From: Candidatus Competibacteraceae bacterium
GTDB lineage: Bacteria; Pseudomonadota; Gammaproteobacteria; Competibacterales; Competibacteraceae
NCBI GenBank assembly: GCA_016790045.1
Contig: JAEUPW010000139.1
Span: forward strand, 1-64,000
Length of the DNA: 64,000 nucleotides
Reading direction: 5' to 3'
The position numbers were made by a program, and so were the translations under genes. Shown here in pieces: positions 9,341 through 12,680 of this stretch. The notes under the pieces are model-generated. The model saw only the letters and a program-made list of their open reading frames with translations, did no database searches and was not told where the DNA came from. Position 1 is the first letter of the stretch; each line of letters starts with the position of its first letter.

Positions 9341-9471
9341 GGCGCTAAACGGGCGCGGCCCTTGGCGCGGCGCGCTTTCAAAACGAGTCGGCCACCCTTG
9401 GTGGCCATCCGGGCGCGAAAGCCGTGAGTGCGCTTGCGGTGGATGATGCTGGGCTGGAAAGTGCGCTTCAT
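9337..9471 (-). CDS. rpmH: Ribosomal protein bL34
   Basis: A 44-residue, highly basic ribosomal protein starting [20 protein letters not shown] and ending [13 protein letters not shown]. Its length is identical to E. coli L34. ATG 9471 has AAGGA seven bases upstream. It is the first gene of the leftward rpmH-rnpA-yidD-yidC-mnmE series. Its promoter is predicted at 9531-9559, back to back with dnaA. The stop codon overlaps the proposed CTG start of rnpA. Confidence 0.98.
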
Positions 9472-9530
9472 GGCGATTCCTTGAGAACGGTGCGGGAGAA
9501 ACAGATTGCGCTATTTTACGAAAACCGCAA

Positions 9531-9559
9531 AATTACTGATTGAGAGGCAATTTTGTCAA
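9531..9559 (-). promoter_or_regulatory. Sigma-70 promoter of the rpmH operon
   Basis: On the minus strand TTGACA (9559-9554) is followed after 17 bases by GTAATT (9536-9531). Shifting one base gives TAATTT with an 18-base spacer. The leader to rpmH would be about 55 bases. The -35 is a perfect consensus, fitting a heavily transcribed ribosomal protein gene. Confidence 0.65.
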
Positions 9560-9658
9560 GCGATTCGCGATAGGCGCCAAGCCGGGCGCGGTGGCTAACG
9601 GGCCTCTAAGCTATTAAACTGGTTTGTTGCTTCCAAGATATCGCGCGGAGGATCGTTT

Positions 9659-11014
9659 GTGGGCCATGCGTTGTGGAAATCCTGTCTGGAATGTCTGGAA
9701 CGCGAACTGTCCGAACAGCAATTGAGCACCTGGATCCGTCCGCTGCACGCCCGGCAGGAAGGCGACACGCTGCGCCTGCTCGCCCCCAACCGCTTCGTGC
9801 TCGATTGGGTCAAGAAACATCATTTGGCGCAAATTCAAGCCGTGGTGGAGCGCATTAACCCCGAACAAAGCGCGCCGGTGCTGCTGGAAATCGGCAGCGG
9901 CATCCTGAACGACGAAGCGGTGGTCGAAAACGCCGAAGAATTTCAGGCGCCGCCGGAGGACCAAGCGCCTTTAAGCGGCGGCGAGTTGCTGAAAAGCGGG
10001 GCGCTCAACCCCGATTTTACCTTCGACACTTTCGTCGAGGGCAACTCCAACCAAATCGCCCGCGCCGCCTGCCTGCAAGTCACCCAAAACCCCGGCAAAG
10101 CCTACAACCCGCTATTCATCTACGGCGGCACCGGCTTGGGCAAGACCCACCTGATCCACGCCGTCGGCAACATGCTGCGCGAGCGCAATCCGGAGGCGCA
10201 AATCGTGTTTCAAAACTGCGAGCATTTCGTGGCCGACATGGTGCGCTCCCTGCAACACAACGCCATCAACGAATTCAAGCGCCGCTACCGCTCGCTGGAT
10301 GCCCTGCTGATCGACGACGTGCAATTTCTGGCGGGCAAGGAGCGCTCGCAGGAAGAATTTTTCTACACCTTCAACAGCCTGCTGGAAAGCCGGCAACAAG
10401 TGATCCTGACCTGCGACCGCTACCCCAAAGAAGTCGCCGGCTTGGAGGATCGGCTGAAATCGCGCTTCGGTTCGGGGCTGACGGTCGCCATCGAGCCGCC
10501 GGAACTGGAAACCCGCGTCGCCATCCTCAAAAGCAAAGCCGAACAGGCCCAACTCGGTCTGCCGGACGAAGTGGCGTTCTTCATCGCCCAGCGGGTCCGC
10601 TCCAACGTGCGCGAGCTGGAGGGCGCGCTGCGGCGGGTTTACGCCAACGCCCAGTTCACCGGCAAGGCCATCACCCTCGGTTTCGCCAAAGAAGCCTTGA
10701 GCGATCTGCTGACTTTGCAAGACAAGCTGGTCACCATCGAAAACATTCAAAAAACCGTCGCCGACTATTACAAGATCCCGGTCGGCGATCTGCTGTCGAA
10801 CAGCCGGCTGCGCACCTTGTCCCGGCCCCGGCAGATGGCCATGGCCCTGACCAAGGAACTGACCGCGCTCAGCCTGCCGGACATCGGCGAAGCCTTCGGC
10901 GGGCGCGATCACACCACCGTGCTGCACGCCTGCCGCAAGATCAGGGAACTCCAGAAGCGCGACCCTGAAATCCGGGACGATTACACCAATTTGATCGGAA
11001 CCCTGACCAACTAG
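9659..11014 (+). CDS. dnaA: Chromosomal replication initiator DnaA
   Basis: DnaA binds the 9-mer boxes at oriC, forms an ATP-dependent filament and opens the duplex. GTG 9659 is the start, with GGAGG at 9647-9651 seven bases away. The 451-residue protein shows all four domains. Domain I begins [20 protein letters not shown], the variable linker runs about 85-115, and the AAA+ domain carries GGTGLGKT (156-163) and [12 protein letters not shown] (near 217-227). Domain IV ends with the DnaA signature [14 protein letters not shown] (415-428), which reads the boxes. The cluster of 12 perfect boxes begins 10 bases after its stop. rpmH is divergent, and no perfect box lies in the gap between the two genes. 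Confidence 0.99.
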
Positions 11015-11023
11015 CGAATTGCC

Positions 11024-11400
11024 TGTGGATAACTCCTGTGGATAAGTGGAATAACTTTTTAAAGCCTATTTCACGCGCGATCAATGTTTGAAAATGAGTT
11101 TAAAAAAACTTTAAAATTATCATCTTAAGCGCCAAATGATGCTAATATTAGCGGTCTCTAGCAAGAGCTGATGGATCGGCTGTTTATTAGGCGGAAAGAG
11201 CCTGTGGATAACTCTGTGGATAACTTTGCCATTTCTGTGGATAAGTCGGCCAAACCTGTGGATAACTCTGTGGATAACTTTTGACCCCAAAAAAGTTATC
11301 CACAGGAAAATCGACTTATCCACATTTTATCCACAGACTTATCCACAGGAAAAAATCGCGTAATATTTTGAGTTAAAAAGATAAAAAAAAGTTATCCACA
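11024..11400. repeat. Twelve perfect DnaA boxes
   Basis: TGTGGATAA occurs at 11024-11032, 11037-11045, 11203-11211, 11215-11223, 11236-11244, 11257-11265 and 11269-11277. Its complement TTATCCACA occurs at 11296-11304, 11316-11324, 11327-11335, 11339-11347 and 11392-11400. Start-to-start spacing is 11-13 or 20-21 bases, i.e. one or two helical turns, so neighbouring boxes lie on the same face of the helix. The two central arrays point at each other with the centre near 11287. All 12 match the strict consensus, which implies high-affinity binding throughout. Confidence 0.97.
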
Positions 11401-11455
11401 GAAAATCGGCTCACTAATAATAATAATCTTTTATATATATAAGAGAAGTTCTTTA
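11401..11455 (+). other. DNA unwinding element with DnaA-trio-like repeats
   Basis: Next to the last DnaA box (11392-11400) comes a short GC-containing spacer (ATCGGCTC), then CTAATAATAATAATC at about 11414-11428, then a TTTTATATATATAA stretch. The TAA triplets spaced every three bases match the DnaA-trio pattern used by DnaA to hold one strand of the melted origin. The order box, GC spacer, trios, AT-rich DNA is that of the basal unwinding system described in other bacteria. The layout is seen directly; its use is inferred. Confidence 0.65.
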
Positions 11456-11579
11456 CTGATTGGCGGGAGCCCAAATACCGATACTCGCCAACCCTAAAAT
11501 TTTTTTAACCCCTGATCGCGGTCAGGAATTAGCGACCCCGGACCAAGGCCGAGGACGGCTCAACCGATTCGGAGAAACC

Positions 11580-12680
11580 ATGAAACTGGAAGCCAAGCGC
11601 GAGCACTTGCTGAAACCGCTCCAGCAAGTCATCGGCGCGGTCGAGCGCCGGCAGACGCTGCCGATCCTGAGCAATGTGCTGCTGGCGGCCAAAGAGCGCG
11701 AGCTGTTGCTGACCGCCACCGACCTGGAAGTGGAACTGTCGGCCCGGGTCCAACTGCCGGTGGAAACGCCCGGCGAAATCACCCTGCCCGCCCGCAAGCT
11801 GCACGACATTCTGCGCGCGCTGCCGGAAGACGGCACGGTGGCGTTGAGCGTCGAGGGCGAAAAGGCGACCGTGCGCTGCGGCCGCAGCCGCTTTACCCTG
11901 GCCACCCTGCCCGCCGCCGATTTTCCCACGCTGGAAGATCTGCCGTTTGGCGAGGATATCCGGCTGGCGCAAAGCGCCTTGCGCGGCCTGATCGAGCGCA
12001 CCCATTTCGCCATGGCCCAGCAGGACGTGCGCTACTACCTGAACGGTTTGCTGCTCGAAGTCGGCTCCGGCGCGCTGCGGGTGGTCGCCACCGACGGTCA
12101 CCGGCTGGCGTTTCAGGAGTTGCCGATCGAAGCCGATGCCGCTCAAGCCCGACAGGTCATCGTGCCGCGCAAGGGCGTGCTGGAATTGATGCGCCTGTTG
12201 GCCGACAGCGAGGCCGAGGCGGCGCTGGCGCTCGGGTCCAATCACATCCGCGCGGCGATGGGCGATATCCGCCTCACCTCCAAACTCATCGACGGCAAAT
12301 TTCCCGACTACCAGCGGGTCATCCCGCGCGACCCCGGCCGCACCGTGATCGCCGACCGCATGGTGCTGCGCGGCGCGCTGGCCCGCGCCGGGATCATGAT
12401 CGACGACAAGACCCAGAGCGTCCGCCTGCAACTGGAAGACTGGACGCTGCGGGCGCAGGCCCACAGCTCCGAGCAGGAAGAAGCCGAGGAAGAAATCGAG
12501 ATCAATTACAGCGGCGGCCCGATGGAAATCGGTTTCAACGTCACCTATCTGCTCGATGCGTTGGGCGCCCTGAGCGGCGAACTGGCCAAGCTGTCTTTCA
12601 GCGATTCCGGCAGCAGTTGCCTGATCGAAGAAAACGAAAGCGGCAGCAGCAAGCACGTCATCATGCCGATGCGGCTGTAG
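11580..12680 (+). CDS. dnaN: DNA polymerase III beta sliding clamp
   Basis: The clamp encircles DNA and tethers polymerase III and repair factors. ATG 11580 has GGAG six bases upstream and gives 366 residues, the same length as E. coli. An open stretch continues upstream of this ATG but lacks family sequence. The opening MKLEAKREHLLKPLQQVIGA and the end SKHVIMPMRL are conserved, the latter being part of the pocket that binds partner peptides. The three repeated clamp domains are complete. An acidic insert (EEAEEEIEINYSGG) near 300 resembles other gammaproteobacterial clamps. recF follows after 13 bases, so the two are co-transcribed. Confidence 0.98.
   Translation: MKLEAKREHLLKPLQQVIGAVERRQTLPILSNVLLAAKERELLLTATDLEVELSARVQLPVETPGEITLPARKLHDILRALPEDGTVALSVEGEKATVRCGRSRFTLATLPAADFPTLEDLPFGEDIRLAQSALRGLIERTHFAMAQQDVRYYLNGLLLEVGSGALRVVATDGHRLAFQELPIEADAAQARQVIVPRKGVLELMRLLADSEAEAALALGSNHIRAAMGDIRLTSKLIDGKFPDYQRVIPRDPGRTVIADRMVLRGALARAGIMIDDKTQSVRLQLEDWTLRAQAHSSEQEEAEEEIEINYSGGPMEIGFNVTYLLDALGALSGELAKLSFSDSGSSCLIEENESGSSKHVIMPMRL

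Follow-up and report, generated by a model that had tools for sequence, protein, structure and literature searches.

A putative chromosomal origin with twelve perfect DnaA boxes in Competibacteraceae, a family in which Hda is mostly not found

Background

The origin of Escherichia coli is the described system closest to the locus reported here. It contains two oppositely oriented arrays of DnaA-binding sites (PMC10380432, PMC6727663) and a lone R1 box beside the DUE. Boxes R1 and R4 are perfect, R2 has one mismatch and eight further sites are weak, six of them with a preference for ATP-DnaA. The R boxes have a similarly high affinity for ATP- and ADP-DnaA, and it is the six weak sites which confer ATP dependence on the origin (PMC6727663). 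Changes of one helical turn between boxes are tolerated but partial turns are not, according to the account of Woelker and Messer available through PMC4285127. A synthetic derivative without DnaA-ATP sites, oriC-allADP, fires with ADP-DnaA but over-initiates, as summarised in a review of the work of Grimwade et al. 2018 (PMC6727663). ATP-preferring boxes seem to be missing also from the origins of B. subtilis, Caulobacter and M. tuberculosis (PMC6727663). An origin rich in boxes and close to dnaA is oriCI of Deinococcus radiodurans, which has 13 (PMC7988490). A literature search for oriC in Competibacter found no paper.

Results

The sequence analysed (the window, 64,000 nucleotides) belongs to a MAG of 2.76 Mb in 179 contigs that is 75.8% complete (G000). 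The best named relatives of its DnaA are from Competibacteraceae MAGs, with 83-90% identity. To the right of the locus dnaA and dnaN are followed by recF and gyrB, and to the left lie yidC and trmE/mnmE. The features of the region are listed in Table 1.

Table 1. Features of the dnaA-dnaN region, in positions of the window
Feature	Position	Strand	Remarks
dnaA (initiator)	9659..11014	+	Pfam Bac_DnaA 6e-68, Bac_DnaA_C 7e-30
Distal perfect-box pair	11024..11045 (11024-11032, 11037-11045)	-	directly after dnaA stop codon
AT-rich spacer	11046..11202 (157 bp)		length varies among relatives, sequence unconserved
Left array, five perfect boxes	11203..11277	-	starts 11203, 11215, 11236, 11257, 11269; spacings 12/21/21/12
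Centre, arrays facing	11278..11295		27 bp start to start
Right array, four perfect boxes	11296..11347	+	starts 11296, 11316, 11327, 11339; spacings 20/11/12
IHF-like site ACTCAAAATATTA	11361..11373	-	one mismatch to WATCAANNNNTTR; 18 nt from R1-like box
R1-like perfect box	11392..11400	+	neighbour 53 bp away (E. coli R5M-R1: 55 bp)
DUE	11414..11446		CTAATAATAATAATCTTTTATATATATAAGAGA; lower strand TTATTATTATTATTAG, repeats of ssDUE/DnaA-trio type
dnaN (sliding clamp)	11580..12680	+	Pfam DNA_pol3_beta 8e-44

Twelve perfect matches to TTATCCACA lie at 11024-11400 between dnaA and dnaN and none elsewhere in the window, whose dinucleotide-shuffled versions contain 0.07 on average and never more than 1; the whole assembly contains 17, these twelve included. 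The twelve strict boxes of the sequence-only reading were thus all present. Its count of five boxes pointing right and four pointing left has to be corrected. Because the minus strand carries seven of the boxes and the plus strand five, the core is five facing five about 11287, with the distal minus-strand pair beside dnaA in addition. Within the core, spacings on the same strand (12/21/21/12 and 20/11/12/53) are close to whole helical turns.

Boxes with one or two mismatches were not found in 11015-11579, and those with one mismatch elsewhere in the window are far off. The 21-bp gaps of the left array were considered as places for hidden sites, which was rejected: 9-mers in phase with the boxes differ from the box at 4-7 positions. 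Sites with three or more mismatches are outside the reach of a sequence search, and the weak DnaA sites of E. coli were discovered by footprinting only. The spacer at 11046-11202 is fast-evolving and showed no recognisable function. Upstream of dnaA (9359-9658) the window has no DnaA box; in many relatives a box lies at about -66 to -90, where it is likely to serve autoregulation.

The motif CTAATAATAATAATC starts 13 nt beyond the last box, at the same distance as CTAATAA beyond R1 in E. coli, and a DUE core of this type is conserved throughout the family loci. The IHF-like site of the window is weak when taken singly (shuffle P 0.12); its offset and strand recur in 14 of 16 loci of the family and likewise in oriC of E. 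coli, where the best IHF match of the gap also begins 18 nt from R1, on the minus strand. A second R1-DUE arrangement in mirror image at the left end, suggested by CCTAATAA beyond 11203, was rejected. This motif is not conserved in the relatives and is taken as a chance occurrence.

The arrangement was followed through Competibacteraceae. In the main clade dnaA and dnaN are about 550-700 bp apart, compared with about 190-280 bp in the majority of those sister groups whose gap is sizeable, and loci with a complete region carry 11-13 boxes. The series 12/21/21/12 - 27 - 20/11/12/53 is kept in relatives family-wide, and the variants that occur shift by about one helical turn (21/21/12/54). Nearly all main-clade members retain the distal pair, at 164-283 bp from the next box. 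None of the other gammaproteobacterial dnaA loci examined has more than four perfect boxes in 600 bp.

One relative (G017, locus L100) deviates in the boxes themselves. Eight of its twelve oriC boxes read TTATCCACC, with the same A-to-C change at position 9, and its DnaA has His at the position of E. coli Pro423, beside the box-contact helix. G006 has Leu there and normal boxes. A joint change of initiator and boxes is possible in G017, as is gene conversion. Recoding of boxes to TTATCCACC throughout the G017 genome was rejected, the counts being no higher than in its relatives. In G006 the same 9-mer forms divergent pairs, spaced by about 58-59 bp, on five contigs (C46, C123, C348, C352 and C365), perhaps as part of a repeat or insertion element.

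The sequence-only reading had pointed to GC skew as a check on the origin. The cumulative GC-skew minimum of the window is at 12432, near the array, an outcome in favour of the origin rather than against it. In two relatives with longer contigs the minimum was about 6 kb away (G046, 164-kb contig: minimum 125060, array 130923-131375) and about 14 kb away (G024, 399-kb contig: minimum 272922, array 287001-287470). When switch points of skew were ranked along the G024 contig, the array came 116th of 598. Since larger switches exist elsewhere on this contig, we regard skew as moderate evidence that is supporting rather than decisive.

The claim that the segment is oriC is well supported by its location between dnaA and dnaN, by conservation in the family, by a DUE and IHF geometry like that of R1 and the DUE in E. 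coli and by the nearby skew minimum. We conclude that 11015-11460 is almost certainly the chromosomal oriC of this Competibacteraceae gammaproteobacterium.

Dense arrays of perfect boxes with facing groups were also seen outside the family, in the Gammaproteobacteria G298 (L171), G280 (L154) and G098 (L158) and in two other Pseudomonadota, G559 (L239) and G353 (L241). They differ from the array of the window in belonging to unrelated families and in the order of their boxes. G559 has 14 perfect boxes, a 12/21/21/12 run and a trio-like DUE, CTACTACTA; neither dnaA nor dnaN was found in the 3 kb fetched. Three tandem perfect boxes occurred in 3 of 299 sampled Pseudomonadota, the genome of the window included. 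This indicates that such arrays are rare but not unique.

Hda is the main DnaA-inactivation protein in E. coli. We found no hda in 35 of 39 family genomes, that of the window included, and this absence of hda (and with it of RIDA) is new here. In the negative genomes the best match was DnaA itself (about 100-120 bits) or a weaker one. Many of the negative genomes are 96-100% complete, among them G010, G017, G024, G046 and G053 with 99-100%. Hda was present in four genomes, G011 (255.7 bits) and G012, G018 and G008 (167-186 bits), in the gene order pgsA-perM-hda. Next to perM the gene was missing in 25 Hda-negative genomes, G000 among them, that have sequence beyond perM.

Box number and Hda can be read together on the DnaA tree. 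A sister clade (100/100) is made up of G012, G018 and G008, all with Hda and with 0-3 boxes at the origin. The next branches are G014, which is 85% complete and has 9 boxes and no Hda, and G011, which has both 9 boxes and Hda; their mutual order is weak (87/57). The 15 rows of the main clade (100/100) combine the full array with the lack of Hda. From this order it follows that gain of the array preceded or accompanied the loss of hda, which happened once or twice. G011, which kept Hda beside nine boxes, is an intermediate. In essence the joint pattern represents one or two events, on a single tree and in one clade. A link between dense arrays and Hda loss in the class as a whole is unsupported: G298 has no Hda, G280 is ambiguous, and G098 and G063 keep Hda. 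About 40 of 274 genomes in the class have no clear Hda, most of them without dense arrays.

SeqA was found in none of the 39 family genomes by a search that did detect the E. coli control. Dam is patchy in the family and was not found in the window's genome. The segment 11015-11460 contains two GATC sites compared with 11 in the 232-bp oriC of E. coli. The sequence-only reading had taken low GATC content as arguing against SeqA control; a GATC cluster and a SeqA gene, the marks of an origin under SeqA/Dam control, were both not found. A depletion or enrichment of GATC across the whole window was rejected (533 sites, with 555 given by a second-order expectation).

DnaA of the window keeps the equivalents of the E. 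coli residues K178, R285 and R334 (ATPase), V211 and R245 (ssDUE) and R399, R407, Q408, D433, H434 and T435 (box contact). Residues used to bind and hydrolyse ATP, to oligomerise, to bind the ssDUE and to contact the boxes are all retained.

In addition, 23 of the 39 family genomes contain one complete DARS-like element each. It consists of a convergent TTATCCACA-N5-TGTGGATAA (head-to-head boxes I and II) and a third box 12 bp away, with a further box about 185 bp off and an IHF-like motif. Its boxes are also perfect, and it is unlinked to oriC. The DARS core is defined by head-to-head boxes I and II together with box III (PMC10380432). We judged the likeness from the published description only, since in the E. 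coli DARS2 stretch retrieved the boxes escaped recognition even when two mismatches were allowed, and DARS2 was dropped as a sequence yardstick. In G000 the element (G000:C45:16748-16953; L003, L155) is flanked by an acylphosphatase-like gene and proS. Boxes II and III are there, as is the distant box; box I is lost. The copies of relatives are L185-L208. Similar elements occur in other Gammaproteobacteria as well (L157, L159 in tandem, and L168). A DARS-like recharging device thus seems to have been retained across most of this Hda-less lineage. Conservation of the element and of the ATPase residues suggests that somewhere it probably still makes a difference which nucleotide DnaA carries.

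Discussion

In its plan the origin resembles that of E. coli. Both have two oppositely oriented arrays and a lone R1 box beside the DUE, and R1 is separated from the next box by 53 bp here and 55 bp in E. coli. Since array orientation, the distance from R1 to the DUE and the IHF offset all match, the locus is, by sequence and geometry, an origin of the E. coli plan in which consensus boxes replace the weak sites. Facing arrays are therefore no contrast to E. coli. The differences lie elsewhere: twelve perfect boxes and no recognised weak sites, a position between dnaA and dnaN which the E. coli origin does not share, and the lack of SeqA and Hda, which both exert control in E. coli. With oriC-allADP the locus shares arrays in which no sites preferring DnaA-ATP are recognised; that origin, however, is engineered, has weak non-discriminating sites and over-initiates in cells that keep Hda. 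D. radiodurans oriCI differs in that only 8 of its 13 boxes are perfect and that they are scattered over both strands without facing arrays (PMC7988490).

How such an origin might work can be outlined. DnaA would fill the two facing arrays of consensus boxes, IHF would bend the 44-bp gap ahead of the R1-like box, and the DnaA complex would then open the AT-rich DUE and hold its TTATT strand. The twelve boxes are predicted to have uniformly high affinity for DnaA. As all recognisable sites in the arrays are of the R-type consensus, which in E. coli is blind to ATP and ADP, loading should not sense the nucleotide form. Taken with the loss of hda, this suggests that timing would most likely come from the amount of free DnaA, as set by synthesis and by titration on the twelve boxes, and/or from an ATP-dependent step at the DUE. 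We give a probability of roughly 0.5 to this reading, in which loading is blind to ATP- versus ADP-DnaA and timing stems from DnaA supply or the DUE step. The more specific proposal that the lineage dropped both the ATP-sensing weak sites of oriC and Hda/RIDA, and that DnaA amount sets the time of initiation on an origin whose boxes are uniformly strong, is offered tentatively, at less than even odds. A different way of timing, as suggested earlier, gains indirect support from the loss of hda and the absence of SeqA; the retained DARS-like element and ATPase residues of DnaA speak against a nucleotide state without any role.

These retained parts would fit with an ordinary ATP-gated oriC. Here, in line with a proposal for B. 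subtilis, the strong boxes would be only a scaffold and ATP-DnaA would still set the timing by oligomerising along the TTATT/DnaA-trio strand in the DUE, while intrinsic hydrolysis or a datA-like site would compensate for the loss of Hda. R285, R334, K178, V211 and R245 are conserved, the DUE carries an expanded TTATT repeat, a DARS-like element makes sense only if ADP-DnaA needs recharging, and the three origins named above seem to manage without ATP-preferring boxes too. The perfection of the boxes and the loss of hda are, however, left unexplained and no datA-like element was identified, so we consider this a serious contender with somewhat less than an even chance.

A different explanation would deny the perfect boxes much regulatory meaning and attribute them to repeat dynamics, that is gene conversion or slippage of near-identical units. 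The eight G017 boxes with the same substitution look concerted, and TTATCCACC is not enriched across that genome. Yet the sequences between boxes are not homogenised while whole-turn spacings are kept across genera, and perfection extends to the boxes of the DARS-like element, which is unlinked; homogenisation is improbable. It might also be thought that a box cluster adjoining dnaA is mainly a sink for DnaA or a control region for dnaA-dnaN, with the true origin elsewhere, since R-box titration near origins is known (PMC6727663). Conservation of the DUE, the IHF site and the R1 geometry and the nearby skew minimum make this very improbable indeed.

The reading of a nucleotide-blind loading step bears on a wider question. 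The relative parts of box affinity and DnaA-ATP turnover in the timing of initiation have so far been approached through engineered E. coli origins that over-initiate. Sister genera with Hda and a conventional origin, the intermediate G011 and the Hda-less main clade offer a series for comparison and experiment. An entire family apparently manages with an origin made of consensus boxes and in the absence of Hda, and may therefore be regarded as a natural test of replication timing.
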